A DNA stretch of 35,941 nt. It comes from an uncultured Flavobacteriaceae bacterium. Lineage in GTDB: Bacteria; Bacteroidota; Bacteroidia; Flavobacteriales; Flavobacteriaceae. Shown here in pieces: positions 4,098-30,998 of this stretch; position 1 is the stretch's first letter; each line of letters begins with the position of its first letter. Below the pieces are notes generated by a model that worked only from the letters and a program-made list of their open reading frames with translations, was not told the DNA's origin and made no database searches. The translations under genes were made by a program, and so were the position numbers. Location of the stretch: positions 1-35,941 of the forward strand of contig CALDUF010000113.1 of assembly GCA_937923515.1 (NCBI GenBank), given 5' to 3'.

Positions 4098-5489
4098 TTA
4101 CTGTACCGCTTTTTCTTTATTACCAATTTTAAAACTGTTAATATATCCTATAGGATCTTTTGCATCATAAGTTGTACCGTCAATAAAATCGGCAGTTGCT
4201 GGCTTGTAACCATCGGTAGTTGGAATATCGCTTGCAGGAATCTTACCTTCAGCTACCAGTAATTTTGCAGCTTTTGTCCAAATATCAGGACGGTAAATAT
4301 CTTTAATAGTTGAAGCGTACCAATCTGCTGGTTTAGACTCAGGAATTTGTCCCCATCGTCTCATTTGCGTTAAAAACCAAATACCATCAGAGTAAAACGG
4401 ATATGTTGCGTTGTACTTGTAGAATACGTTAAAATCTGGCATTTCGCGCTTATCGCCTTTTTCAAATTCAAATGTACCAGTCATAGAGTTTGCTAATACA
4501 GCTTCGTCTGCGCCTACATATTGAGACATCGATAAGATTTTTACAGCCTCTGCTCTATTTCCTGGCTCGTCTAACCATTTTCCTGCTCTAATTAAGGCTT
4601 TAGTTACAGCAGTTGCAGTGTTAGGATATTGCTCCACAAATTTCTTTGTCATTACAAATACTTTTTCTGGGTTGTTTTTCCAAATATCATAGTTGGTTGT
4701 AACTGGCACACCAATACCTTTAAATACAGCTTGCTGGTTCCAAGGCTCACCCACACAGTAACCATAGATGGTACCTGCTTCTAAAGTTGCTGGCATTTGT
4801 GGCGGCGGCGTTACAGATAATAAAACCTCTGCATCAATTTGCCCTTGTACGTTATCGGCAGTATACATACCTGGGTGAATACCCGCTGCCGCTAACCAAT
4901 ATCTTATTTCGTAATTATGTGTAGATACAGGGAATACCATACCCATTTTAAAGGCTTTACCAGAATTTTTATACTCTGTAATAACAGGCTTTAAAGCCTC
5001 AGCTTTTATAGGGTGAATTGGCTTACCATCTGCACCTTTTGGTACATTTGGCTTCATTTTACTCCAAACATCGTTTGAAACTGTAATACCATTACCATTT
5101 AAATCCATAGAAAATGGTGTTACCAATTCAGCTTGACGACCAAAACCTGCACCAGCAGCAATTGGCTGTCCCGCTAACATATGAGAACCATCTAATTGAC
5201 CATCGATAACACGATCTAAAACGTTTTTCCAGTTAGATTGCGCTTCAACAGAAACAAACAAACCTTCATCTTCAAAAAATCCTTTTTCTTTAGCGATAGC
5301 TAAAGGTGCCATGTCTGTTAATTTTATAAAACCAAATGATAATTGAGGTTTTTCTATTTCTAGTGTTTGTGTTGTGCTTGATGCTGCAGCAGTATCGGCA
5401 GCAGCTACTTTTTTCTTTTCACCACCACAAGCAAATAATAATGCTGCTACAGGCAAAATCCAAGTTGTGCGTTTTAATAGAGATTTCAT
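4098..5489 (-). CDS. nrtA: Nitrate-binding lipoprotein of the ABC importer (NrtA-like)
   Basis: Periplasmic solute-binding protein, 463 residues. It starts with a lipoprotein signal (lipobox LFAC, lipidated C21), followed by GGEKKK and a flexible Ala/Thr-rich linker to about residue 45, so it should be tethered to a membrane. It has no acidic run after the cysteine, which argues against surface export. Motifs of the NrtA/CmpA family include [20 protein letters not shown]-type N-lobe sequence, [15 protein letters not shown] and [13 protein letters not shown]. It is the first gene of the nrt operon. A TATATTTG promoter element and a perfect TAAGTA-N4-TACTTA dyad lie just upstream. Nitrate, rather than bicarbonate or nitrite, is inferred from linkage to nasA and nirBD. 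Confidence 0.9.
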
Positions 5490-5511: not shown

Positions 5512-5527
5512 TAAGTATAAATACTTA
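5512..5527 (-). promoter_or_regulatory. Perfect TAAGTA-N4-TACTTA dyad in front of nrtA (predicted operator)
   Basis: The 16-bp dyad has perfect 6-bp arms and TAAA in the centre. It ends 22 nt before the nrtA start codon and lies 8 nt downstream of the TATATTTG element, i.e. around the expected transcription start. The same motif occurs at 6793 and 30624 (perfect) and at 20824 and 22901 (one mismatch each). Confidence 0.7.
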
Positions 5528-5535
5528 TTTTTTGA

Positions 5536-5543
5536 CAAATATA
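5536..5543 (-). promoter_or_regulatory. nrtA promoter -7 element TATATTTG
   Basis: On the minus strand TATATTTG matches the Bacteroidetes TAnnTTTG consensus and lies 46 nt upstream of the nrtA ATG. No clear -33 TTG was found at the usual spacing, as often seen at regulated promoters. Confidence 0.55.
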
Positions 5544-5690
5544 TAAGTACATATAATTTTCGGGGATGATAATCCGCATAAACCAACCTCTTTTTACGCA
5601 TAACAAAACATGCTAAAACGCAGTTTTTGGTCATAAATATTTTATTTAAAGGCATTTAAACTACTTATTACAGTATATAGAACTACGTAA

Positions 5691-5858: not shown

Positions 5859-6003
5859 GCGTTTACAGATTACCGCGCAGTAAACGCATAGCAATACCTT
5901 TGGCGGATGGGTTTGCGTTAGGGATTGCAGTGGATAGCCCACAGCGAGGCACGAGCGAGGACTTGGAACGTAAAGCCCGACCCGACCTAAGGAGGGTAAC
6001 GCC
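5859..6003 (+). repeat. Dispersed GCGTTA/TAACGC element, copy B, with adjoining hairpin
   Basis: The element proper runs from GCGTTAGGGATTGCAGTGG (5915) to GGGTAACGCC (ending 6003), with GCGTTA and TAACGC as inverted ends and GCCCGACCC before the right end. To its left is a separate hairpin, GCGTTTAC (5859-5866) and GTAAACGC (5880-5887). The right end is only 14 nt past the stop codon of the minus-strand crp/fnr gene, so the element may act as that gene's terminator. Short open frames here on both strands are not genes. Confidence 0.65.
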
Positions 6004-6017
6004 AAAAAAAAATAAAG

Positions 6018-6758
6018 CTAGCTATCTAAAAAGTAGTTGTGTTCGCTAATTTCTTTTTTAAGTAAATTAACATCGGTAATACCAATTTTTTTGCCCTTGG
6101 CAGAAATAAGCTTTTCCTTTTTTAAAGCAGAAAATACACGAATTACCTGCTCTTCTGTAGTGCCAGCATAATCGGCATATTCTTTTCTACTTAGCGGTAA
6201 ATTTATAAAGCCTCTTAAGTCGCCAAATTTGCGGTGAATATATAGTAAGGTGTCAATAACACGTTCACGAACCGTCATTTGAGAAATGGATTTTACTTTG
6301 TTTTCGCTTCTATTAAGTTCGTTGGCATAAAACAACATCATCTCGTAGGCAAACTTTGGGTTATGCATTAAAACGTCTTGCATATGCTCTTTAGAAAAGT
6401 AATGTAACTCGGTATTTTGAAGTGCAATTGCACCTATAGAATAATACTCTTGGGTGCCAAAACCTCGATGCCCTATAATTTCGCAAGGTTTTGCGAAACG
6501 TACAATTTGCTCACGACCGTTAATACCGGTTCTAAAAACTTTTACTGTACCACTTTTTATAAAAAAGAGTCCGTTTACTGGCGCCCCTTCTATAATAAAT
6601 TGCTGCCCCTTTTTACACTTTATTACGGTACTAACTTGTGTAGATTTAGTGTTAAAAAGTGTGTCATAATTATTATGAATTAAACAACGTTTACTTTTGC
6701 AAACACCACAAACTACATCTAAGGATGCTTTAGTTTCAAAACTTTTTGGTGTAGGCAT
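6018..6758 (-). CDS. Crp/Fnr-family transcription regulator with N-terminal cysteine cluster
   Basis: Regulator of 246 residues: an N-terminal cysteine segment (C17, C20, C25 in VCGVCKSKRC), a cyclic-nucleotide-binding-like beta-roll (about 45-150), a long dimer helix and a C-terminal winged helix (about 170-240) whose recognition helix TTEEQVIRVFSALKK keeps the Glu and Arg used by CRP and FNR to read DNA. Further cysteines are C48 and C92. The C-x2-C-x4-C spacing is close to FNR's C-x2-C-x5-C, so an oxygen- or NO-sensitive iron-sulfur cluster is possible but unproven. It stands between nrtA and the Moco operon, and a perfect TAAGTA-N4-TACTTA dyad overlaps its own promoter, which suggests autoregulation and control of the nitrate genes. 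Confidence 0.85.
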   Translation of the reverse strand: MPTPKSFETKASLDVVCGVCKSKRCLIHNNYDTLFNTKSTQVSTVIKCKKGQQFIIEGAPVNGLFFIKSGTVKVFRTGINGREQIVRFAKPCEIIGHRGFGTQEYYSIGAIALQNTELHYFSKEHMQDVLMHNPKFAYEMMLFYANELNRSENKVKSISQMTVRERVIDTLLYIHRKFGDLRGFINLPLSRKEYADYAGTTEEQVIRVFSALKKEKLISAKGKKIGITDVNLLKKEISEHNYFLDS

Positions 6759-6786: not shown

Positions 6787-6808
6787 CAAAAATAAGTAAT
6801 AATACTTA
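6787..6808 (-). promoter_or_regulatory. Composite operator/promoter of the crp/fnr gene
   Basis: On the minus strand TAAGTA-TTAT-TACTTA (6793-6808) runs straight into TATTTTTG (6794-6787), a TAnnTTTG -7 element that shares the last TA of the dyad. It ends 28 nt before the ATG at 6758. The divergent moeA gene starts 183 nt away. Same architecture as at nirB and nasA. Confidence 0.65.
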
Positions 6809-6990: not shown

Positions 6991-8169
6991 ATGATTTCTA
7001 TTACCGAAGCTATTTCTACAGTTAAAACTAACGTAAAACCATTATTACAATCTACTACTAAAAAGGTTGAAAAAGCTGGTGGCTACCTTTTATTTAATGA
7101 TGTGCATTCACCTATTAATATGCCGCCGTTTAGGCAGTCGGCTATGGATGGTTACGCTTTAAATTTACATGACGATTTATCATATACATTACTTGGTGAA
7201 GTTAAAGCTGGCGATGGCGATACATTTGTTTTAAAAAAAGGAGAGGCTGTTAGAATTTTTACGGGTGCACCTGTTCCTGATACTGCAAATGCAATTATGA
7301 TGCAGGAAAAAGTAGCATCAAAAGGAAAAACGATAGCGATAAAGGAACAAATTCCTCAAAATCATAATATTCGTCCTTTGGGAGAGCAAGTTAAAGCCGG
7401 AGATATCGCTTTAAAAAAAGGCACAAAATTAACGCCTGCTGCTATTGGGTATCTTATATCTTTAGGTATTACTCAAGTATCAGTTTTTAAAAAACCTAAC
7501 ATAGCCATTGTAACTACAGGCAACGAATTGGTTGACCCCGGAGCAGATTTGCCCTTTGGTAAAATTTACGAGAGCAACTCTAAAATGCTACTGAGTGCTT
7601 TATATAATTTGAAGTATTACGATGTTACGCTTTACAAAGTAGAAGATGATTACAACAAAACCGTAAATACTTTAAACACGGCAATTAATGCTAACGATTT
7701 AGTGATGATTACTGGTGGTATTTCGGTTGGTGATTATGATTTTGTTGGAAAAGCGTTAAAAGAACTACAGGTTTTTGAGCTATTTTATAAAGTAAAGCAA
7801 AAACCCGGAAAGCCGTTATTTTATGGTAAAAAAGAGGATACACAAATATTTGCCTTACCAGGAAATCCTGCTGCTGCATTGTCTTGTTTTTATGTGTATG
7901 TGTATATCGCACTGCAAAAATTGATGCATAGGAATGATATAGAACTGCCGCGTATTAAAGCTAAGTCTATTTCAGCTTTTGAAAAGAAAGGCGATCGTCC
8001 ACAATTTTTAAAAGGCATTTATACGGATGGCAACATTGAAATTTTAGATGGCCAAAACTCATCAATGTTACAAACTTTTGCTTTGTCTAACGCTTTGGTT
8101 TACGTACCAGAACACGTTACAAATATTGAAAAAGGAGCTGTTACTGAAGTGATACAATTACCGGTTTAA
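6991..8169 (+). CDS. moeA: Molybdopterin molybdotransferase MoeA
   Basis: Inserts molybdate into adenylylated molybdopterin in the cytoplasm, the metal-insertion step of Moco synthesis. The protein is 392 residues, a normal length, with the family motifs PPFRQSAMDGYAL near the N-terminus, IFTGAPVPDTANAIMMQE, the MogA/MoaB-like domain with TTGNELVDPG, TGGISVGDYDFV and KPGKPLFYG, and the LPGNPAAALSCF loop, then the C-terminal beta-barrel domain. It is the first gene of the plus-strand Moco operon, reading towards the ModE-like gene 9 nt downstream. The start is the first ATG after the TATATTTG element. Assignment is secure. Confidence 0.95.
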   Translation: MISITEAISTVKTNVKPLLQSTTKKVEKAGGYLLFNDVHSPINMPPFRQSAMDGYALNLHDDLSYTLLGEVKAGDGDTFVLKKGEAVRIFTGAPVPDTANAIMMQEKVASKGKTIAIKEQIPQNHNIRPLGEQVKAGDIALKKGTKLTPAAIGYLISLGITQVSVFKKPNIAIVTTGNELVDPGADLPFGKIYESNSKMLLSALYNLKYYDVTLYKVEDDYNKTVNTLNTAINANDLVMITGGISVGDYDFVGKALKELQVFELFYKVKQKPGKPLFYGKKEDTQIFALPGNPAAALSCFYVYVYIALQKLMHRNDIELPRIKAKSISAFEKKGDRPQFLKGIYTDGNIEILDGQNSSMLQTFALSNALVYVPEHVTNIEKGAVTEVIQLPV

Positions 8170-15686: not shown

Positions 15687-17120
15687 TTAATTTTGTTTTA
15701 CGAGAATCTTCTTCTCAAAATTACTTTTTGGTGCTTCGCAGAGTGAACATTGGTAAGTGTCTGGAAGTGTTTTAAAGGGTGTGTTGGGTGCTATGTTTTG
15801 AGTGATGTCGCCATAAACTTCGTTATACACCGTCATACAATCTGTGCATTGGTAAACTTCTTCTTCTGCGGTTTCGGCTTGTGTTTTTTTATGTGATTCT
15901 GCCTCGCGCTCTGAGCCTAATTGCTCGAAATATAGCTGACTGAGTTCCATAAGCAGTCCTGGAAGTTCTACCTTATCTACGTCTTGCACATGCATAATAT
16001 AGTCTCGGGTGTTGGGGTCGAAATTTTTAGCGTATAGCAAATTATACGTGTCTCTTATTTTAAAATTACTAACGGATGCCGGTTGCCTATTTTTTTCTAT
16101 AACGATGGATGTGAAGTTATACGTATCGCTATCATAGCTTGTGATGCCAAATGTGAGTCCGTAAGTACTGATATCGTTTTGATCGAAATTGGATACTAGG
16201 TATTTTTTCAAACTTAAAGCTTCCTCATCGTTTACCGGCACGTGCCAATTCATTTCTAACATAGAATGGCGCACGTTTATACCAAATTTACCTAATAGTT
16301 TTTCCCATTGTAATTTTGCGTTTTGCGGTATGCCTTTGATGATGAACGATTTCCAAGGTGTTATGGAAATTTTACCGATTTTATTCTCAGAACACATATC
16401 GCACATGGCTTTTAGAAATGGCAAATCGTACCGGTTATTGCGCCAATACAGCCCTAACCAATAACGGTCTGTACCAATTCTATTCATCCCTTCGTAATAC
16501 GGAAATGGGTAAAATGGTACTTCTAAAGGCTTATCTACAGTGCGGTTATTTGTATCTATAGCATCACTTACCAAATCGAAAACGGTTTGGATAGTTTCTG
16601 GCTCTTCTATTAAAATATTTTCTATGGCTAGCTCTACTTTATCCATATCCCAACTGTAAATTAATGCAGGATACATTTCGGTAGTAGACCACCCTGGAAG
16701 CCTTAAATAAAGGTACCAATAATCTTCGTGCTTTGATGCTATAAAATTAACATTACCCGTAAATAAAGGCACTAAGCGTTGTTGCGGATCTATAACATTT
16801 ATACGCAATTTGTTTTTGTGCTTAAATTGCTCTAAAACATACAAATACCTATCGCTGGTAAGCCAAGAGGTGCTTGGTAATATTTCGGCAGAAACGTAAG
16901 ATGATGCTATATTTTCAATACCATCTTTTTTGGGTTGTACGAATTTGATTTTATCGAATTGACTAAATTTTGCCTCATCTATTTCCTCTGGAAAAATGAT
17001 ATCTTGTCGCGACCCAAACGAAATAGCATCTAACCCCAAACCTTCTGCAGCTTCACAAATATATTTTAGTTCTCCTGGTGATAATACACCGCCGTTTATC
17101 ATTAATCTGTATGGTTCCAT
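15687..17120 (-). CDS. Nitrite/sulfite reductase half-domain protein with C-terminal rubredoxin domain
   Basis: A protein of 477 residues. Two segments resemble the ferredoxin-like half-domain of nitrite/sulfite reductases: INGGVLSPGELKYICEAAEG at the N-terminus and CSENKIGKISITPWKSFIIK in the middle. The siroheme/4Fe-4S motifs (C-x5-C and C-x3-C) that follow such half-domains in real reductases are absent. The last about 60 residues are a rubredoxin: YQCTDCMTVYNEVYGD, then LPDTYQCSLCEAPKSNF, i.e. two CxxC iron ligands. Its ATG overlaps the nasA stop (TAATG), so it is translationally coupled to nitrate reductase. Probable role: electron carrier or assembly partner of NasA in the cytoplasm (inference). 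No signal peptide. Confidence 0.8.
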   Translation of the reverse strand: MEPYRLMINGGVLSPGELKYICEAAEGLGLDAISFGSRQDIIFPEEIDEAKFSQFDKIKFVQPKKDGIENIASSYVSAEILPSTSWLTSDRYLYVLEQFKHKNKLRINVIDPQQRLVPLFTGNVNFIASKHEDYWYLYLRLPGWSTTEMYPALIYSWDMDKVELAIENILIEEPETIQTVFDLVSDAIDTNNRTVDKPLEVPFYPFPYYEGMNRIGTDRYWLGLYWRNNRYDLPFLKAMCDMCSENKIGKISITPWKSFIIKGIPQNAKLQWEKLLGKFGINVRHSMLEMNWHVPVNDEEALSLKKYLVSNFDQNDISTYGLTFGITSYDSDTYNFTSIVIEKNRQPASVSNFKIRDTYNLLYAKNFDPNTRDYIMHVQDVDKVELPGLLMELSQLYFEQLGSEREAESHKKTQAETAEEEVYQCTDCMTVYNEVYGDITQNIAPNTPFKTLPDTYQCSLCEAPKSNFEKKILVKQN

Positions 17121-20100
17121 TATGCTAAAACTTTAGAATTATGAAGTATTTCGCGTACCTCGGTTTTACAACTTCCGCAACCTATGCCTGCTCCCGTTTT
17201 ATTACAAAGCGCTGTAAAATCGGTACAGCCTTTTGCGATAGCTTCTTCTATATTTCCTGCGCCCACTTGACTGCAGGAACATACCAATTTGCCTAATACA
17301 GGAACATCGTTTGCTGAACCTCGTAACAACGTATCGCGCTTATCGGCCATTTCAATTTTACTTTCTATCATGGTTTTAAATTCAGCAAATTCATTTTTAT
17401 CGCCCATTAAAACTGCACCAATCAACAAATCATCTTTTACGATACATTTTTTATAGTAGCGTTTTTTGATATCGGTGAAAATAATTTCTTCATAACTCAA
17501 ATCGTTTTCAGGTACGTTAATATCGCCAATGCTACATAAATTCAAATCGTTGAATTTTAGAATATTCATTAATACTGAACCGTTATACGCTTCACTAATA
17601 TCGCCTGCTATAAAATTGGCAAGTATTGTAGCTTGCTCCTCAGCAGCTGATGTAATACCAAATAATTGATTGTTAAACTCTGCTATTTCACCAATTGCAA
17701 AAATATCTGGATGCGAGGATTGTAAATGTTGGTTTACTATTACACCGCGTCTACATTTTATACCGTTTTCTCTTGCAATATCAACATTAGGAATTGTACC
17801 TATGGCGTAAACAATGGCATTTGCGGTAATAAATTTTCCACTTTTTAAAGTGATGTTTAATGCACCTGTATCATCATCATCAAAAACGGTACTTACCTCG
17901 TTATCAAAATAAATTTGAATACCACGCTCTTGCACATCTAATGCCAATAGTTTACTAGACACCTTATCTAATTGACGTTCCATTAAACGTGATGCTCTTT
18001 GCACAATTGTAATTTTTGCATTTTTGTGTTTCATGGCCGCTGCTAGTTCTAAGCCTAACAATCCACCACCAACTATAACAACATGCTGCTCTTCTGGAGG
18101 TAATCCTGTGGCGTCTAAATGTGCCTTAAATTCGTCGGCATCTACTTTATTACGCATTGTAAAACGCCCTGGTAAATCTATTTGTACATCTTTAGGTACA
18201 AAGGCGCGACTGCCTGTTGCTAAAATAAGTTTATCAAATGCATGTGTAGCACCGTTGCTGTCTTTTACTACTTTTTTATCCTTATCTATTTCCGTTATTA
18301 TAGTTTCTGGATGTAAGTGTATATCTAGCTTACTTAATTCCTGCTCTTTAATTTTTAATAGTTGTTCCCAAGTTAATTCTTCAGTAACATACTCTGGCAA
18401 TAATACCCTATTATAAAATAAGTTAGGTTCTTTAGAAAATACATGAATTTCATCAACGCCATTATTTTCTCGGTAGTTTTGCACAAACCTAAATGCAGCT
18501 GCTCCTGCGCCTGCAATTATAATTTTTTCGGTTGGTTTTTTATATTTTGAAACCGCAACACGTGTAAATTTAAAATCTGGTTCTTTTGAAACAGGATCTA
18601 CATGTGTATTGGTTAAATTATTGGCTCTGTTTAAGTTACTTTGCAAACGTTTACCCCAATGCATTGGTAAAAACACCACGCCTTTTTTAATGGTATCTGT
18701 AACTTTAGCTCTTACACGTACTTCGCCATTTTCGCCTTTTATTTCTGTAATATCGCCATCTTTAATATGGTATAAATAGGCATCTACAGGATGAATTTCT
18801 AAAACAGGCTTGGGATAATGCGTTTTTAGTCGCGACACTTTTCCTGTTTTTGTCATAGTATGCCATTGATCTCGCACACGACCTGTTGTTAAAATTAAAG
18901 GAAAATCGTTATTGGTTGGTACTGATGTATTTTGAATAGTGCTTGGATTGTTAAACTGTGCCTTTCCTGATGGTGTATAAAACTTTTTATCGCTAAACAA
19001 TCGCGGTGTACCTTGATGCCTATGCGCTGGCACTGGCCATTGAAATGTGCCTTCGGTTTTTAAGCGGTTGTAATTTAAATGGGACACATCGATGTTTGTG
19101 CCTTTTGTCATTAATGCGTATTCATCATAAATCTCGCTAGCACTATTAAAATTAAAGCCTCTAAAGCCCATACGTTGCGCAAAATCACAAAATATTTCTA
19201 CATCTGGTCTGGCTTCTCCAGGTGCCTCTATTTCTTTTGGTAAGTATGAAATTCTACGTTCAGAATTTGTCATCGTACCCTCTTTTTCTAACCAAGCTGC
19301 TGCTGGTAACACTAAATCGCCAAACGCTACAGTATCCGACTTATGAGAAATATCTTGAACCACAACAAACTTTGCATTTTTCATGGCCTTCTCAATCCTA
19401 TTTAAATTAGGTAAACTTACTAATGGATTTGTACAGGCAATCCAAACAGCTTTCATTTTGCCACTTTCTAAGGCATCAAACATTTCGGTAGCTGTAAGTC
19501 CTGGTTTTGGATTTATTTTATCCACGCCCCAAAATTGTGCTACTTCACGGCGGTGTTCTTCGTTCATTAAATCTTTATGAACGGCAAGAAGATTTGCCAT
19601 TCCGCCTACTTCTCTACCACCCATAGCATTAGGCTGCCCTGTTAACGAAAATGGCCCTGAACCTGGTTTACCAACTTGCCCAGTTATTAATGATAAATTT
19701 AATAAGGATACATTTTTATCGGTACCTACAACACTTTGGTTTAGGCCCATGGCCCACATACTAATAAAGCCTTTTGAAAGCCCTATCATATCCGCTGCCT
19801 TTTGAATATCTTTTTCTGGAACGCCACATAATTTAGAGGCTTGCTTTAAAGATGTTTTAAGTATAAGCTCTTTATAGGCTTGAAATCCTTCGGTGTGATT
19901 ATTAATAAAATCTTCATCAATTAAACCGCGCTTATACAAACAACGCCCTATGGCATTTTGCAAAACAACATCAGTACCAGGTAGTAATTGTAAATGTAAA
20001 TCTGCAAAATTTGCAGTATCTGTTTTTCTTGGATCTACTACAATAATTTTTACATTGGGGTTTTCCTCTTTATGCTTTTCTAATCGCCTGAATAAAATAG

Positions 20101-20641
20101 GGTGACACCACGCTGGGTTTGCACCTGTAATTAAAAACGTGTCTGCCAATTCTATATCTGCGTACGCCACTGGCACACTATCTTCACCAAATGTTTTTTT
20201 ATAGCCCACAACAGCAGAACTCATACATAGGCGTGAGTTTGTATCGATATTATTGGTACCCAAAAAGCCTTTGGTGAGTTTATTTGCAATGTAATATTCT
20301 TCGGTTAAGCTTTGTCCAGAAACGTAAAAACCAACACTATCTGGCCCATGCTTTTTAATAATAGATTTAAAAACGCTAGCAGCTCTATCTAAGGCATCGT
20401 CCCAACTTACGCGCTCTCTTGGGTGCGATCTGCTCCAACGCATTTCTGGGTATAATATTCTATCAGAAGTATCATTCGCCACATAATGCAAGTTCATACC
20501 TTTAGAACATAGCATGCCTTTGTTTACAGGATGATCTTTATCGCCTTGTACCAATACTTTATTGTTAGCATCTTTTTTGACAATAATACCACAACCAACA
20601 CCACAATAAGAACAGGTTGTTTTAACTTCGTTTTTTATCAT
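17120..20641 (-). CDS. nasA: Assimilatory nitrate reductase with fused NirB-like FAD/NAD module and BFD domain
   Basis: A cytoplasmic molybdoenzyme of 1173 residues that reduces nitrate to nitrite. Domain order: 4Fe-4S motif (C10, C13, C17, C45); bis-MGD catalytic domain with the probable Mo-ligand Cys in NSRLCMSSAVVGYK (about 140); dinucleotide-binding domain to about 690 (TGRVRDQWHTMTKTGKVSRL); then an FAD/NAD(P) disulfide-reductase-like domain from about 700 (IIIAGAGAAAFRFVQ, VVIVGGGLLGLELAAAM, AIVYAIGTIPNVDIA); and a BFD-like [2Fe-2S] domain at about 1115-1165 (CSCSQVG, CNKTGAGIGCGSCK). Ordinary NasA ends after the Mo part or a BFD domain, so here the NADH dehydrogenase appears built in. 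Promoter: composite TAAGTA dyad/-7 element at 20818-20839 with a leader of about 170 nt. Confidence 0.93.
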   Translation of the reverse strand: MIKNEVKTTCSYCGVGCGIIVKKDANNKVLVQGDKDHPVNKGMLCSKGMNLHYVANDTSDRILYPEMRWSRSHPRERVSWDDALDRAASVFKSIIKKHGPDSVGFYVSGQSLTEEYYIANKLTKGFLGTNNIDTNSRLCMSSAVVGYKKTFGEDSVPVAYADIELADTFLITGANPAWCHPILFRRLEKHKEENPNVKIIVVDPRKTDTANFADLHLQLLPGTDVVLQNAIGRCLYKRGLIDEDFINNHTEGFQAYKELILKTSLKQASKLCGVPEKDIQKAADMIGLSKGFISMWAMGLNQSVVGTDKNVSLLNLSLITGQVGKPGSGPFSLTGQPNAMGGREVGGMANLLAVHKDLMNEEHRREVAQFWGVDKINPKPGLTATEMFDALESGKMKAVWIACTNPLVSLPNLNRIEKAMKNAKFVVVQDISHKSDTVAFGDLVLPAAAWLEKEGTMTNSERRISYLPKEIEAPGEARPDVEIFCDFAQRMGFRGFNFNSASEIYDEYALMTKGTNIDVSHLNYNRLKTEGTFQWPVPAHRHQGTPRLFSDKKFYTPSGKAQFNNPSTIQNTSVPTNNDFPLILTTGRVRDQWHTMTKTGKVSRLKTHYPKPVLEIHPVDAYLYHIKDGDITEIKGENGEVRVRAKVTDTIKKGVVFLPMHWGKRLQSNLNRANNLTNTHVDPVSKEPDFKFTRVAVSKYKKPTEKIIIAGAGAAAFRFVQNYRENNGVDEIHVFSKEPNLFYNRVLLPEYVTEELTWEQLLKIKEQELSKLDIHLHPETIITEIDKDKKVVKDSNGATHAFDKLILATGSRAFVPKDVQIDLPGRFTMRNKVDADEFKAHLDATGLPPEEQHVVIVGGGLLGLELAAAMKHKNAKITIVQRASRLMERQLDKVSSKLLALDVQERGIQIYFDNEVSTVFDDDDTGALNITLKSGKFITANAIVYAIGTIPNVDIARENGIKCRRGVIVNQHLQSSHPDIFAIGEIAEFNNQLFGITSAAEEQATILANFIAGDISEAYNGSVLMNILKFNDLNLCSIGDINVPENDLSYEEIIFTDIKKRYYKKCIVKDDLLIGAVLMGDKNEFAEFKTMIESKIEMADKRDTLLRGSANDVPVLGKLVCSCSQVGAGNIEEAIAKGCTDFTALCNKTGAGIGCGSCKTEVREILHNSKVLA

Positions 20642-20817: not shown

Positions 20818-20839
20818 CAAATCTACGTATTAATACTTA
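20818..20839 (-). promoter_or_regulatory. Composite operator/promoter of nasA
   Basis: On the minus strand TAAGTA-TTAA-TACGTA (20839-20824, one mismatch to the perfect dyad) continues into TAGATTTG (20825-20818), a TAnnTTTG -7 element sharing the final TA. This is the architecture found at nirB and crp/fnr. It lies 176 nt upstream of the nasA ATG. Confidence 0.6.
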
Positions 20840-22202: not shown

Positions 22203-22868
22203 TTATAGCAAAGCATGGCTTTTTGCTTTATCTATCAATTCCTTTAAGTTAGATACTTCTAACTTTTTCATCAAATTAAAGCGATGCACTTCTGCCGTTC
22301 GTTTGCTTATTTGTAGCTCATCAGCAATATCCTTATTGTTTTTAAATTCTAAAACTAAACCAAGGATTTGCTTTTCGCGTTTGGTGAGATTGAAGACACT
22401 TTCTTTTAAGACAATTTCAGGACTTACAGCAGTATTTGTATTGCCATTCACAAAATTTTTCATAATAATAGCAGATACATCACCTGTAAAATACTTGCCG
22501 CCAGAAGCTACTTTTGTTACTGCCTTTAAAAACTCCTCTTTACTAGCACCTTTTAGTAAATACCCATCTGCTCCTGCTTGTATGGCTTGCACTACGTATT
22601 CTTCAGAATCATGCATAGACAACACCAATGTTTTTACCTCTAAATTTAACTTACTAATTTCACCTACAACCTCAATACCATTCATTTCAGGCATTCTAAT
22701 ATCTACTATTAGTACGTGCGGTTTACTATTAGCAATTAGTGATAAGGCTTCTTTTCCGTTTGATGCTTCATCAATCACTTCAATACCTTCTTGATCTTCT
22801 AAAAGTGCCTTAATACCATCGCGAACTAAAACATGATCATCAGCAAGTACAACATTAATTTTATCCAT
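22203..22868 (-). CDS. NarL/FixJ-family response regulator
   Basis: A two-component regulator of 221 residues: receiver domain (1-120) with the acidic pair D10/D11, phosphoacceptor D56 in LIVDIRMPEMNG and the conserved Lys in YLLKGASKEE; LuxR-type helix-turn-helix at the C-terminus (LTKREKQILGLVLEFKNNKD, ISKRTAEVHRFNLMKKLEV). Its probable partner is the NarX-like kinase at 24724-26541, two genes away. In E. coli NarL the recognition helix has Lys188 and Lys192; at the matching places this protein seems to have Glu and Phe, so it should not read the classic NarL heptamer. Its own promoter region carries a near-perfect TAAGTA dyad (22901-22916). Confidence 0.92.
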   Translation of the reverse strand: MDKINVVLADDHVLVRDGIKALLEDQEGIEVIDEASNGKEALSLIANSKPHVLIVDIRMPEMNGIEVVGEISKLNLEVKTLVLSMHDSEEYVVQAIQAGADGYLLKGASKEEFLKAVTKVASGGKYFTGDVSAIIMKNFVNGNTNTAVSPEIVLKESVFNLTKREKQILGLVLEFKNNKDIADELQISKRTAEVHRFNLMKKLEVSNLKELIDKAKSHALL

Positions 22869-22886
22869 AATTTACTATTATTCAAA

Positions 22887-22916
22887 CAAAAGTAATAAAT
22901 TAAGTAATACTACGTA
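22887..22916 (-). promoter_or_regulatory. Promoter and TAAGTA-type dyad of the response-regulator gene
   Basis: TACTTTTG on the minus strand (22894-22887) fits TAnnTTTG and lies 18 nt before the ATG. The dyad TAAGTA-ATAC-TACGTA (22901-22916, one mismatch) is 6 bp upstream of it. Read on the plus strand the same dyad runs into TATTTGTG, one base off TAnnTTTG, so it could also serve the divergent cytochrome gene at 23007. Confidence 0.5.
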
Positions 22917-26553: not shown

Positions 26554-27138
26554 TTATGAAATCGCCTGTTTCACTAAAGCCAAAGAGGTGTCAGAAAAGT
26601 TGAGTTTTAAGGCTTCTTGCTGCCCTTCATCACTCATCTTAACCCAAGTTTTTTGCAAAATATCAATTACCTTTTCGTCAGGATGTTTTTCTGCAAACTC
26701 ATCAAAATAATAATCTAAAAACACTAAGCATATTGTATCTTCTAAGGCTTGAGACTCCTCATTCTTCTTAATAAGTTTTTTTAGAATAATTTTTCTAATT
26801 CTATCATCAAATTGCGCATCATAACCTACTTTTTTTAAAATATCAGACGTTAAATCTGCATGCATTTTCTTTAAAGTTTCGCGCCATTTTAAATAACCAA
26901 CACGGTCCATTGGGTATGCGTCTCTAGGTATTTTCCATCGGCAAATGTGTTGTGCGCGTGCAGCAATTTGTAACGCCTTAGATGCGTCTGGTTTAAACTG
27001 TAATAACTTTCGTGTCATACGTTGCGAGTAGAGTAACTCTTTAGGATATTGTAATCCTGCAACCTCGTAGGTATTTGTGTCTTCTGAGTTTGCTTTGTCA
27101 ATAAGTGCAATAGCAGTTTCAAAACGTGTGGGCTTCAT
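26554..27138 (-). CDS. DUF4202-family protein
   Basis: A soluble protein of 194 residues without a signal peptide. It has the family features KANSEDTNTYEVAGLQYPKE, QIAARAQHICRWKIPRDAYP and GYLKWRETLKKMHADL, with several conserved His/Asp (QHICRW, KMHADL, DYYFDEF) that recall an HD-type metal site, although this is only a pattern guess. DUF4202 genes are often met beside nitrate-assimilation genes; the function is unknown. Here it opens the operon with the NarX-like kinase (12-nt gap) and RidA-like gene, so a role in nitrogen sensing or signalling is plausible. Confidence 0.85.
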   Translation of the reverse strand: MKPTRFETAIALIDKANSEDTNTYEVAGLQYPKELLYSQRMTRKLLQFKPDASKALQIAARAQHICRWKIPRDAYPMDRVGYLKWRETLKKMHADLTSDILKKVGYDAQFDDRIRKIILKKLIKKNEESQALEDTICLVFLDYYFDEFAEKHPDEKVIDILQKTWVKMSDEGQQEALKLNFSDTSLALVKQAIS

Positions 27139-27453: not shown

Positions 27454-27831
27454 TTATTCCGTAAAACCTATATAAACACTGCCAGCATCAATTTTTACTG
27501 GATAGGTAGCAATAGCCTCTAAATCGCCATTTAAATTCTCACCATTTTCTAACGAAAAAGTTTTTTTATGCAACGGGCAAGCCACCTTTGGTACGCCCTT
27601 ATCATCACCAATCATACCGCGACTTAGCACCATTTCCATTTTATGCGGACAAAGGTTTTGGCACGCATACCACTTTCCTAATCTCGAAAAATTAAACACG
27701 GCAATTTGCTTGTTTTTATATTTAACGCACGCACCACCATCTACAGGAAAATCGGCTACAGATGCTGCTTTAAACCAAACGGTAACGTCTTCAATATTAG
27801 TAGCACAATACGTATCTAGAATATTTTCCAT
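27454..27831 (-). CDS. nirD: Nitrite reductase small subunit NirD (Rieske type)
   Basis: Small subunit of the cytoplasmic NADH-dependent nitrite reductase, 125 residues with a Rieske fold. Both cluster-binding boxes are intact: CPHKMEMVLSRG (Cys and His) and CPLHKKTFSLENG (Cys and His), so it can bind a [2Fe-2S] cluster, unlike enteric NirD proteins that have lost these ligands. It is downstream of nirB on the same strand, separated by 252 bp that carry a copy of the dispersed element, which is an unusually large gap for this gene pair. No separate promoter was identified, so it may depend on nirB transcription. Confidence 0.92.
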   Translation of the reverse strand: MENILDTYCATNIEDVTVWFKAASVADFPVDGGACVKYKNKQIAVFNFSRLGKWYACQNLCPHKMEMVLSRGMIGDDKGVPKVACPLHKKTFSLENGENLNGDLEAIATYPVKIDAGSVYIGFTE

Positions 27832-27888
27832 TTTAATTTATTTTAAGATATTAAAATTAGTATCATTTATTCGTTTTCTATAATTTGG

Positions 27889-27984
27889 ACGTTACCCCGC
27901 AAAAAAGCGGTGTCGGGCTTTCCGTTTGTAGTGTTGCGCTCCGCTTAGGCGAGCGCAAAAGCTATCACTGCAATCCCTAACGCG
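27889..27984 (-). repeat. Dispersed GCGTTA/TAACGC element, copy D, between nirB and nirD
   Basis: On the minus strand it runs from CGCGTTAGGGATTGCAGTG to CGCGGGGTAACGTC-like sequence, with GCGTTA and TAACG ends. It contains two hairpins: CCGC-(6 A)-GCGG in the plus reading at 27897-27910, and GCGCTC ... GAGCGC (about 27936-27956). Just right of it, 28029-28054 is a near-tandem duplication of AGCTTTAAGTCTT. Confidence 0.65.
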
Positions 27985-28083
27985 GGGGTATCTGCCAACT
28001 ACAAGCATACACTTTTCACCTATCTATCAGCTTAAGTCTCTAGCTTTAAGTCTTAACCAATACGTAAGGCCTTTAACGTACCA

Positions 28084-30600
28084 CTACGCCCAAGGCTCTG
28101 GCATTTTTTGATCGCGCATTGGCACAAAAACCAAGTTATCATCTTCATCCTCACTATTCACAAAATGGTTAAAACGTTTCATCATCTCTGGATCGTTAAC
28201 CGCTTGTGTCCACTCACACTCAAACTTATTAACTAAGGTTTGCATTTCCTTTTCCAAGTCGTCTGCAATTCCTAATTTATCATTTATAATCACTTCTTTT
28301 AAGTAATCTAAACCGCCCTCAAGTCGCTCTTGCCATGCGGCAGTACGTTGCAGTGGTTTTGCAGTTCTCATATAAAACATTAAATACCTATCTAAGTATT
28401 TTATAACCGTTGCGTTATCTATTTGTTCAGCAAATAATTCGGCATGCCTTGGGTTTGCACCACCATTGCCACCTACGTATAAATTCCATCCACCTTCTAC
28501 AGCAATTAAACCAAAATCCTTACCTCGTGCCTCAGCACATTCGCGAATACATCCAGATACACCACCTTTTATTTTATGCGGTGCTCTAATACCTCTATAG
28601 CGGTTTTCTAACTCTATACCAAAGCTTACACTCTCATCCATACCATAACGGCACCATGTAGAACCTACACAGGTTTTTACAGTTCTCAACGATTTTCCAT
28701 AAGCATGCCCGCTTTCAAAACCATGGCTAATTAATTCTTTCCAAATTAAAGGCAACTGGTTTAGCGTTGCACCAAATAAATCTATGCGTACACCGCCTGT
28801 AACCTTTGTATATAAATCGTATTTTTTAGCTATTTGGCCAAGAGCAATTAGCTTATCGGGTGTAATTTCACCTCCTGGAACGCGTGGTACAACAGAATAT
28901 GTACCATTACGTTGAATATTAGCCAAAAATCTATCGTTCGAGTCTTGGATAGCATATTCCTTATTGGCAGTATCGGCATGTATTGTTGCCATTAAAGATG
29001 CAATAAGTGGTTTACACAACTCGCAACCATGGCCACCATTGCCGTGATTATCTAAAACCTCGTTAAACGTGGTATAGCCTTTTACTTCTATAATTTTATA
29101 TAAATCCTGTCTGTTATAATCAAAATGCTCACACACCGAATCTTTAACTTCAATACCAAGCGATTTAAGCGTAGCATTTGTTAAATCTGCAACCATAGGT
29201 TTACAACCACCACAACCCGTACCAGCTTTGGTACAGCTTACAACGCTACCTAAATCTGTAGCTTCACCGCTTTCTATAACACCACATATTTGGCCTTTGG
29301 TAACACTCTCGCACGAACATATTTGTGCCTCGTCTGGTAAATCCATAACATCACCAAGCAATGCACCACCTTCGCTAGTAGGTAATATTAATTGCGCAGG
29401 ATCTTCTGGAATGGCCATACCGTTTAAATATACTTGATGCAACATACTATAATCTGCAGCATCACCAACTAGAATACCTCCTAGTAATTTTTTACCGTCA
29501 TGACTTACATTAATTCGTTTGTATAAATGCTGTGTTTTGTTTTCGAATATAATGGAGTGTCCTTTAGAGGCCGGCATAAACGGTTCACCAAAGCTTGCCA
29601 CATCTACACCAATTAATTTTAATTTGGTAGACATGTCAATATCTGCTGGCATTATTTTGTCGGTATTTCCAATAATTTGTTGCACAGCAACATCTGCCAT
29701 GTCGTAGCCTGGAGCTACCAAACCGTATATCATTTGGTTGTATAGTGCAATCTCACCAATGGCGTAAATATGCGCATCTGAAGTTTTCATGGTATTATCT
29801 ACCACAACACCACCACGCACGCCAACGTCTAGTCCGCATGCTCTAGCCAGTTCATCTCTAGGTCTAATTCCAGCAGAAACTATAAGCATATCAACATCTA
29901 GTACATCATCCTCACCAAACTCCATAGCCGTAATTTTGCCGTCGCCCAAAATTTGATTAGTAGCTTTACTTAAGTGAATATTTAACCCAATAGATTCCAG
30001 TTTTAATTGCAGCACTTGCGAGCTTCTAGAATCTAATTGCCTTGGCATAAGTTTAGAGGCAAACTCTACAACATGTGGTTCTAAACCCATGTCTAAAACT
30101 GCTTTTCCAGCTTCTAAACCTAATAAACCACCGCCTAAAATAGCGGCTCTACCATCTGGCTTTTCTGCATTAATTTTAGCAGCATAGGCTAACATGTCTT
30201 CTAAATCTTCAATGGTTCTGTACACAAACACGCCTTCTTTCTCTACGCCTTTTATTGGCGGTACAAAAGGAGACGATCCTGTTGCCAACACTAAATAATC
30301 ATAAGAAAACTCACGATCCTTAGCTGTGGTTATTGTTTTTGAGCTCCTGTTGATATCTGCAACACGCTCACCAGTAATTAAGTCAACATTATGTTCAGCA
30401 TACCACTCTGCTGGCGCCATTTCTAAAGCTTTAGCATCTTGGTTTTCAAAAAACTCACTTAAATGAACTCTATCATAAGCTGGCCTTGGTTCTTCACCAA
30501 ACACTGTGATTTTAAAATCTTTACTTTCGGCTTGTGCTACAAATTTTTCGCAAAATTTATAACCTACCATTCCATTTCCAACTACAATAACTTGTTGCAT
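28084..30600 (-). CDS. nirB: NADH-dependent nitrite reductase large subunit NirB
   Basis: Cytoplasmic enzyme reducing nitrite to ammonium, 838 residues, normal length. Order of domains: FAD/NAD reductase (VIVVGNGMVGYKFCEKF at the N-terminus, ILGGGLLGLEAGKAV near 160); BFD [2Fe-2S] domain with CSCESV and CTKAGTGCGGCK, then a second BFD-like segment HGCELCKPL; ferredoxin-like half-domain (RNGTYSVVPRVPGGEITPDK); siroheme/4Fe-4S domain with C-x5-C (TCVGSTWCRYG) and C-x3-C (GCIRECAEARGKDFGL). All cluster cysteines are present. A composite TAAGTA dyad/-7 element lies 17 nt upstream of the ATG. nirD follows. The FAD/BFD part is a paralogue of the C-terminal part of the nearby NasA. Confidence 0.95.
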   Translation of the reverse strand: MQQVIVVGNGMVGYKFCEKFVAQAESKDFKITVFGEEPRPAYDRVHLSEFFENQDAKALEMAPAEWYAEHNVDLITGERVADINRSSKTITTAKDREFSYDYLVLATGSSPFVPPIKGVEKEGVFVYRTIEDLEDMLAYAAKINAEKPDGRAAILGGGLLGLEAGKAVLDMGLEPHVVEFASKLMPRQLDSRSSQVLQLKLESIGLNIHLSKATNQILGDGKITAMEFGEDDVLDVDMLIVSAGIRPRDELARACGLDVGVRGGVVVDNTMKTSDAHIYAIGEIALYNQMIYGLVAPGYDMADVAVQQIIGNTDKIMPADIDMSTKLKLIGVDVASFGEPFMPASKGHSIIFENKTQHLYKRINVSHDGKKLLGGILVGDAADYSMLHQVYLNGMAIPEDPAQLILPTSEGGALLGDVMDLPDEAQICSCESVTKGQICGVIESGEATDLGSVVSCTKAGTGCGGCKPMVADLTNATLKSLGIEVKDSVCEHFDYNRQDLYKIIEVKGYTTFNEVLDNHGNGGHGCELCKPLIASLMATIHADTANKEYAIQDSNDRFLANIQRNGTYSVVPRVPGGEITPDKLIALGQIAKKYDLYTKVTGGVRIDLFGATLNQLPLIWKELISHGFESGHAYGKSLRTVKTCVGSTWCRYGMDESVSFGIELENRYRGIRAPHKIKGGVSGCIRECAEARGKDFGLIAVEGGWNLYVGGNGGANPRHAELFAEQIDNATVIKYLDRYLMFYMRTAKPLQRTAAWQERLEGGLDYLKEVIINDKLGIADDLEKEMQTLVNKFECEWTQAVNDPEMMKRFNHFVNSEDEDDNLVFVPMRDQKMPEPWA

Positions 30601-30617
30601 AATTACGTATTTGAAAA

Positions 30618-30649
30618 CAAAACTAAGTATTTATACTTATTTTTAAGTA
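30618..30649 (-). promoter_or_regulatory. Composite operator/promoter of nirB with three phased half-sites
   Basis: The perfect dyad TAAGTA-N4-TACTTA occupies 30624-30639; on the minus strand its last TA begins TAGTTTTG (30625-30618), a TAnnTTTG -7 element ending 17 nt before the nirB ATG. A third half-site TAAGTA follows at 30644-30649, so half-sites start every 10 bp, about one helix turn. No -33 TTG is present at the usual distance. Confidence 0.7.
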
Positions 30650-30838
30650 TAAAAAATTAATAAATTTACGTAGAATAGCGATTATTGAAGATTTCTCAAA
30701 TTGGTAGGTTGATAATTATCTTTTCAAAAATTTGATATTGATTTTTTACTGAAAATTTAAGATTTTAATGCGACGTATTTAAACCAATACTAACACGTAC
30801 AAACGATATTAACGGTTTGGCTATTACCATGCAGATAG

Positions 30839-30998
30839 GCGCGTTAGGGATAGTAGCGGTATCCTTTTGTTTTTTATTTTGAATTAGATTGTATTTGAAG
30901 TTTGCCAAAATTGAATTATTGATGCCTTACATGTAAAGGAATGATAAAACAAAAGATTTAGCGGATAGCCCGACCCCGCTTTTTTGCGGGGTAACGCC
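30839..30998 (+). repeat. Dispersed GCGTTA/TAACGC element, copy E (longest)
   Basis: Runs from GGCGCGTTAGGGATAGTAG to GCGGGGTAACGCC. Inner complementary segments (ATCCTTTTGTTTTTTATT near 30861 and AATGATAAAACAAAAGAT near 30940) can form a long hairpin; near the right end is a perfect CCCCGC-(6 T)-GCGGGG hairpin (30974-30991). The right end is about 19 nt past the stop of the minus-strand gene at 31018, so terminator function is likely. The remaining part of the 417-bp gap carries the nirB promoter at its left end and otherwise nothing recognised. Confidence 0.7.

Follow-up and report, generated by a model that had tools for sequence, protein, structure and literature searches.

A conserved dyad before nitrate-assimilation genes of Flavobacteriaceae, the likely operator of the NarL-type regulator narRR

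A short inverted repeat, TAAGTA-N4-TACTTA, recurs ahead of nitrate-assimilation genes in a contig of an uncultured Flavobacteriaceae bacterium. The whole stretch of 35,941 nucleotides was analysed and is referred to as the window. A sequence-only reading had proposed that this dyad defines a nitrate-assimilation regulon and had likened its 4-bp spacer to FNR-type sites. The locus raises the questions of whether the dyad is a genuine and conserved signal, which regulator reads it and what binding would do to the promoters.

The cluster and its repeated dyad

The genes and sites of the cluster are listed in Table 1. The response regulator consisted of a receiver and a LuxR-type (GerE) helix-turn-helix domain, as in NarL/FixJ response regulators. 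In the histidine kinase, a NarX-like/PilJ sensor preceded HisKA_3 and HATPase domains, which is the arrangement of the Bacteroidetes nitrate-sensing kinase class. HAMP, GAF and PAS domains were unmatched in Pfam at E 0.001, a threshold that may miss PAS or GAF. The P-box of the kinase, INIAGRQRM, contains G-x-x-R, the nitrate-binding motif of nitrate-sensing kinases according to the accessible part of PMC8199190. This motif was kept in the kinase at 97 of 98 homologous loci, a set in which some genomes occur twice.

Other features of the cluster were noted alongside. The Crp/Fnr-type protein carries an N-terminal CxxCx4C motif (CGVCKSKRC), which might bind an iron-sulphur cluster in the manner of FNR. 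A DUF4202 protein (26554-27138) was encoded between nirD and the kinase gene in the window and in all 24 fetched clusters showing the region. The fused NADH/flavin and BFD part of the nasA product resembles the N-terminus of NirB. Three similar intergenic stretches (~5900-6005, 27880-27990 and 30800-30860; gcgttagggat... / ...cagtgatagc) looked by eye like a dispersed repeat.

A pattern scan of the window found the dyad exactly at 5512, 6793 and 30624 and with one mismatch at 20824 and 22901, as the sequence-only reading had listed. That reading had noticed no copies elsewhere; the five promoter copies stand, while an additional one-mismatch copy was present at 29957, inside nirB. The three exact matches compare with 0.01 expected, and none of 100 dinucleotide-preserving shuffles held three. 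The form TAMGTA-N4-TACKTA, which covers all five promoter copies of the window, matched five times against 0.04 expected, again with 0 of 100 shuffles reaching five. When up to two mismatches were allowed, 10 matches compared with 5.4 expected and 7 of 100 shuffles reached 10, an unremarkable count, so that only close matches stand out. The draft genome (2.71 Mb, 87.6% complete) contained three exact dyads, every one in the window, and a single match to the reversed control pattern. The relaxed form occurred seven times, five of them in the window (reversed control, 2). Its two copies outside the window lay in hairpin-like DNA just after an ORF (contig C14) and inside an ORF (C133). The dyad is genuine and greatly exceeds chance expectation; a chance motif was ruled out by the shuffle counts in the window and the draft-genome scan.

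Table 1. Genes, dyads, half-sites and predicted promoter boxes of the window
Feature	Position	Strand	Basis or remark
NarL-type response regulator (narRR), P0002, proposed binder	22203..22868	-	Response_reg PF00072 and GerE PF00196; best PDB match NarL 1a04
Nitrate-sensor-type histidine kinase, P0005	24724..26541	-	PilJ PF13675, HisKA_3 PF07730 and HATPase PF02518
Crp/Fnr-type regulator (crp), P0001; proposed target, not binder	6018..6758	-	Domain match and distribution
nirB, nitrite reductase large subunit	28084..30600	-	Domain/family matches
nirD-like Rieske protein	27454..27831	-	Domain match
nrtA-like substrate-binding protein	4098..5489	-	NMT1_2; ntrB-like permease adjoining
nasA-like molybdopterin oxidoreductase fused to flavin/BFD part	17120..20641	-	Domain/family matches
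moeA, first gene of molybdenum-cofactor operon divergent from crp	6991..8169	+	Dyad upstream in 7/7 fetched copies
nirB dyad TAAGTATAAATACTTA	30624..30639	-	Exact; about -26 to -11 of predicted start site (scale in text)
Predicted nirB -7 box TAGTTTTG	30618..30625	-	TA common to box and dyad; read from sequence
Half-site TACGTA just 5' of nirB start codon	30604..30609	.	Offset +30 from dyad start
Third nirB half-site of the sequence-only reading	30644..30649	+	7-2-7-like inverted pair with 30634-30639
Upstream half-site TACGTA at nirB	30667..30672	.	Offset -33
nrtA dyad	5512..5527	-	Exact; downstream of -7 box, about +4 to +20 of predicted start (scale in text)
Predicted nrtA -7 box TATATTTG	5536..5543	-	Sequence and relatives
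Half-site TACTTA abutting nrtA -7 box	5544..5549	-	Sequence and nrtA-like relatives
crp dyad	6793..6808	-	Exact; between crp and divergent moeA operon
Predicted crp -7 box TATTTTTG	6787..6794	-	TA common to box and dyad
nasA dyad TAAGTATTAATACGTA	20824..20839	-	One mismatch; fits TAMGTA-N4-TACKTA
Predicted nasA -7 box TAGATTTG	20818..20825	-	Sequence
Dyad TACGTAGTATTACTTA between response-regulator and cytochrome genes	22901..22916	-	One mismatch
Predicted response-regulator-gene -7 box TACTTTTG	22887..22894	-	By eye

Conservation and target genes

A survey of 149 genomes of the family comprised 31 that encode nirB (E ≤ 1e-100) and 118 without it. Exact dyads numbered 112 in the nirB-bearing genomes (3.6 per genome) against 56 in the nirB-free ones (0.47 per genome). 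A reversed bare-dyad control gave 51 and 96 matches, respectively. It was enriched in the nirB-bearing genomes too, though less so, and differs in composition, which makes the nirB-free genomes the better control. The composite of dyad and nnTTTG matched 62 times (60 distinct dyads) in 28 of the 31 nirB-bearing genomes and 5 times in the 118 others; its reversed control matched three times in each group.

Named nirB loci were the best 80 of the pattern-scan matches, nearly all of Flavobacteriaceae; Chryseobacterium and Membranihabitans are among the 80. Among these 80, exact TAMGTAN4TACKTA lay within 200 bp of nirB at 76. Two loci without it (L221, L261) carried one mismatch and one (L230) three; the sequence of L237 contained undetermined bases.

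Target genes were counted in 40 fetched stretches and the window, over a span reaching from 350 bp ahead of each BLAST-matched ORF to 60 bp into it; the rows include a few fragments or paralogues. An exact dyad preceded nirB in 24 of 25 cases, nrtA in 14 of 18, crp in 15 of 20, the response-regulator gene in 15 of 26, moeA in 7 of 7 and nasA in 13 of 27. The single nirB miss (G011) had its dyad after all, inside an over-long ORF start. Exact dyads were absent ahead of 11 of 26 response-regulator genes and ahead of 14 of 27 nasA genes, about half of the fetched copies. In the same stretches, no exact dyad preceded the internal operon genes nirD (0/25), that of the DUF4202 protein (0/25), the kinase gene (0/27), nrtB (0/16), nrtC2 (0/12), nrtC1 (0/10) and the rubredoxin-containing gene (0/16). 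Five genomes had additional dyads upstream of MFS transporter genes, six genes in all, and two porin-like genes were likewise preceded by dyads.

By this comparison of sequences, the dyad marks a conserved nitrate-assimilation regulon. The regulon proposed in the sequence-only reading thus gains support at nirB, nrtA and crp, with weaker conservation at the response-regulator and nasA genes. A motif equally common in intergenic DNA unrelated to nitrogen, or unconserved before orthologous genes, would have spoken against it; the dyad was rare in the nirB-free genomes.

Several further sites were recorded. Upstream of nasA in L156, L182, L185, L186 and others, the exact dyad was absent, and several of these loci shared a TTTTATGGTATTCAGAATAATAA-like stretch ~80-100 bp before the start. 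An exact dyad was located ~95 bp before a gene pair in similar context in two genomes (L298 2999 in G072 and L306 3105 in G019). The pair in L298, for which alone families were run, was fumarate-reductase/succinate-dehydrogenase-like and is possibly a further target. Dyads inside ORFs outside the clusters (G044 C3:24062, G049 C27 and G049 C14:266607) appeared chance-like.

The probable binding protein

Of the transcription regulators in the window, two are conspicuous, the NarL-type response regulator and the Crp/Fnr-type protein. The 31 of 149 genomes with nirB were also those with the response-regulator orthologue (E ≤ 1e-60), a co-occurrence that is partly expected since the regulator gene sits in the nirB cluster. 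A close Crp/Fnr orthologue (at least 52% identity) was present in 23 of the 31. Sampling across the class brought in another 13 nirB-bearing genomes, for a total of 44. Four of the 13 (G418, G248, G413, G353) held the regulator orthologue, each with a dyad before nirB (one mismatch in G353). Of the other nine, two had a regulator homologue of 39-42% identity and seven no match at 1e-45. Within 200 bp of nirB, these nine had neither an exact nor a one-mismatch dyad; in one of them, G303, a one-mismatch dyad stood at -242, beyond the 200-bp limit. Altogether, the dyad preceded nirB in 35 of 35 genomes with the regulator orthologue, other families included (G413, G353), against 0 of 9 without it, although the lineages are related and these are not independent trials. 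The Crp orthologue was absent from 10 of the 35 dyad-bearing genomes (G001, G011, G024, G030, G082, G121, G129, G143, G413, G353). Because the dyad tracks the response regulator in this way and the Crp orthologue is missing from these ten, narRR is favoured as binder over an FNR-like protein. The dyad is thus most likely bound by narRR of Bacteroidetes, with the cluster's nitrate-sensor kinase as its partner.

Binding by the Crp/Fnr protein, which would make the dyad an FNR-like site whose half-sites have changed, is improbable on these distributions. It has in its favour that the crp gene itself often bears a dyad, that the spacer is 4 bp as in FNR sites and that the recognition helix retains, by eye, the Glu and Arg of FNR. 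Contacts of the FNR recognition helix include Glu and Arg. Distant Crp paralogues (~30-36%) occur in many genomes and are possible binders. Against it, the ten genomes that lack the orthologue, of which two belong to other families, retain the dyad before nirB, and three genomes (G240, G303, G333) carry Crp relatives of 42-46% identity, yet have no dyad within 200 bp of nirB. The hint of an FNR-type site drawn earlier from the spacer did not hold up, as the dyad follows the NarL-type regulator. A third regulator encoded elsewhere seems slightly less probable still. Binding by narRR is itself proposed from sequence comparison, which leaves room for such a protein, but it would need to match narRR across all 44 compared genomes.

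The recognition helix of the regulator covaried with the half-site. Helices with EVH and ETH were associated with TAAGTA/TACGTA half-sites at 59/16 against 1/18 among 94 rows (61/17 against 1/17 in an earlier count). Rows had been dropped where the stretch contained no regulator or readable helix or no exact dyad, and the later count excluded four duplicates. The helix changes once on the regulator tree, so the covariation is not independent evidence and was rejected as proof of the binder.

The dyad was compared with operators of known systems. NarL of E. coli was the best solved relative of the regulator, and the sensor of the kinase is NarX-like and contains G-x-x-R, as in NarXL/NarQP. The dyad resembles E. 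coli NarL sites in being 16 bp of inverted TAC-containing half-sites. In contrast, the engineered NarL 7-2-7 site in the accessible part of PMC4549865 has TAC at its outer ends (TACCCCTAAAGGGGTA), whereas the dyad has TAC inside (GTA-N4-TAC). A NarL 7-2-7 operator, with inverted heptamers, TAC outermost and a 2-bp spacer, was rejected, as the conserved dyad is TAMGTA-N4-TACKTA. Also unlike E. coli NarL, the targets here are assimilatory and the sites overlap the -7 box. ComA-type sites of the NarL family are 6-4-6, with two hexamers and a 4-bp spacer in 16 bp. The dyad resembles them in this geometry, but half-site and pathway differ. The FNR site is TTGAT-N4-ATCAA and the NtcA site GTA-N8-TAC. 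The dyad shares with them the palindrome and the nitrogen genes, and with NtcA also GTA/TAC, but it differs in sequence or spacing and does not track the Crp/Fnr gene. An FNR-type operator was rejected because the half-site is TAMGTA, not TTGAT/ATCAA-like, and because of the ten genomes without a Crp orthologue.

Promoter architecture and mode of action

In the accessible part of PMC9723704, the -7 box of F. psychrophilum is TAnnTTTG at -12 to -5. A Bacteroidetes sigma-A box of this form was present at nirB. On this scale, the dyads at nirB, crp and nasA in the window would span about -26 to -11 and share TA with the box. The sequence-only reading had mentioned neither this fusion of dyad and box nor the kinase that completes the proposed system. 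At the response-regulator gene, the dyad ended 6-9 nt ahead of the gene's own box where this was readable (by eye), and would lie around -28. Judged from the -7 box, the dyads probably lie within the region covered by polymerase. Among the best 80 nirB loci listed, the dyad was followed immediately by nnTTTG at 63 and by at least three of the four TTTG letters at 75. The 75 aligned nirB rows had been picked by dyad and box criteria, which inflates column scores; TTG at the -33 position occurred at 5 of them.

At nrtA, a TACKTATATATTTG-N7/8-dyad layout was shared by 11 of 18 nrtA-like genes, and two more had a spacing of 9-10 nt. Among the 18, one gene is cut and two, both of G127, are paralogues or distant. 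In G143, the nrtA dyad overlapped a -7-like box as at nirB, so that the downstream placement is not universal. An ATGG-N6-CCAT-like inverted repeat was seen upstream of nrtA at 5566-5579 and in relatives; its centre, near -41 of the predicted start, is a typical activator position.

Further half-sites surrounded the nirB dyad. In the best 80 loci listed, they clustered at offsets -33, -22, -12/-13, +10, +23 and +30/31 from the dyad, with 18 recurrences at -33. A half-site within 22 bp of the nirB start codon was found at 55 of these 80 loci against 4% in letter shuffles. The third half-site of the sequence-only reading is present in the window, but its position reads otherwise in the closest relative (G044, NirB 99% identical). 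Its conservation was therefore rejected, though roughly phased half-sites are common in relatives. Together with the second half-site, it forms a 7-2-7-like inverted pair at 30634-30649 (TACTTAT-TT-TTAAGTA) that is likewise not kept in that relative. A second conserved element, CAATTTGnGAAATTG-like and followed by AATAAT, was located at 30681-30706 and in many relatives, ~50-55 bp upstream of the nirB dyad. Another nitrogen regulator might use it as an activator site.

We consider it quite probable that the dyad is the operator of narRR, with the cluster's kinase as partner, and that the effect is most likely an occlusion of RNA polymerase relieved by nitrate. Occlusion is the most likely effect because the dyads appear to lie inside the core promoter. 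A narRR dimer would read the two hexamers, one helical turn apart, and the spacing of the extra half-sites, close to multiples of 10-11 bp, points to cooperative binding on a single DNA face. At nirB, crp and nasA, the sites would lie over the upstream end of the -7 box; the site of the regulator gene would be at ~-28 and that of nrtA at ~+4 to +20. Bound narRR would occlude RNA polymerase until the kinase, sensing nitrate, relieves the occlusion. On relief, uptake (nrt, MFS), reduction (nas, nirBD), cofactor synthesis (moe) and crp would be switched on jointly.

Taken by itself, the sign of narRR at the dyads is somewhat more probably repression, and activation retains a substantial share. 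Since nrtA and nirB should be co-expressed under one regulator, a repressor at both is the simplest assumption. The sensor kinases of E. coli are turned on by nitrate, an analogy more in line with activation than with repression. Both signs are found for E. coli NarL-P in the accessible part of PMC4549865, where frdA is repressed from sites near its start and narG is activated from upstream sites. At nirB, crp and nasA, the dyad kept a fixed register to the -7 box, an arrangement that could suit an activator just as well.

In a reading with the same binder as activator, phosphorylated narRR just upstream of the -7 box at these three genes would aid polymerase on promoters without a -33 element. 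We regard this as unlikely, while several observations agree with it: the -7-like box directly after the nirB dyad, the rarity of TTG at -33, the expectation that a nitrate-sensor kinase switches genes on, and the overlap of dyad and box at nrtA of G143. Classical activation is, however, unexpected from a dyad 7-8 nt downstream of a TATATTTG box, as in the 11 nrtA-like genes, and the dyad-to-box offset at the regulator gene varies. The missing -33 is uninformative and was dropped as proof of activation, since the available text of PMC7366714 reports no identifiable -33 in F. johnsoniae. It is very improbable that the dyad is merely an extended -7 promoter element of flavobacteria. It shares TA with TAnnTTTG, as such an element would, but the composite is nearly absent from the nirB-free genomes, the dyad has a matching left half 10 bp upstream and, at nrtA and the regulator gene, it stands apart from the box. 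Many composite sites before unrelated genes were looked for in the nirB-free genomes and were not found.

A more elaborate form of occlusion by narRR is tentative and rather doubtful. In it, narRR on half-sites phased by ~10-11 bp would bracket the -7 box and the start, wrapping or sealing the promoter cooperatively as a clamp until nitrate is sensed. The nirB and nrtA promoters would then be near mirror images, nirB with its dyad upstream and a half-site downstream, nrtA with a half-site upstream and its dyad downstream. Such a clamp, if true, would be a form of regulation suited to Bacteroidota promoters of the TAnnTTTG type.

The regulator pair itself is already known. In the accessible part of PMC8199190, the Bacteroidetes pair narHK/narRR was named from gene neighbourhoods, including accession JH651379 (Figure 3 legend), and the same kinase class adjoins nitrate genes as in the window. 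JH651379 is a locus of this comparison (L266, Galbibacter orientalis), with an exact dyad before nirB. The same part of PMC8199190 gives no operator, regulon or promoter arrangement for the pair, and the available text of PMC1274295, a comparative study of nitrogen-oxide regulons, no such motif. In a non-exhaustive search of the open-licence literature, no description of an operator, regulon or promoter embedding of narRR was found.

As far as these sources go, the dyad provides a ready-made candidate operator and target list for a Bacteroidetes regulator pair previously recognised from genes only. Flavobacterial nitrate assimilation thereby becomes a testable regulon. The dyad is also a clear example in which to ask how response regulators might act on TAnnTTTG-type promoters.
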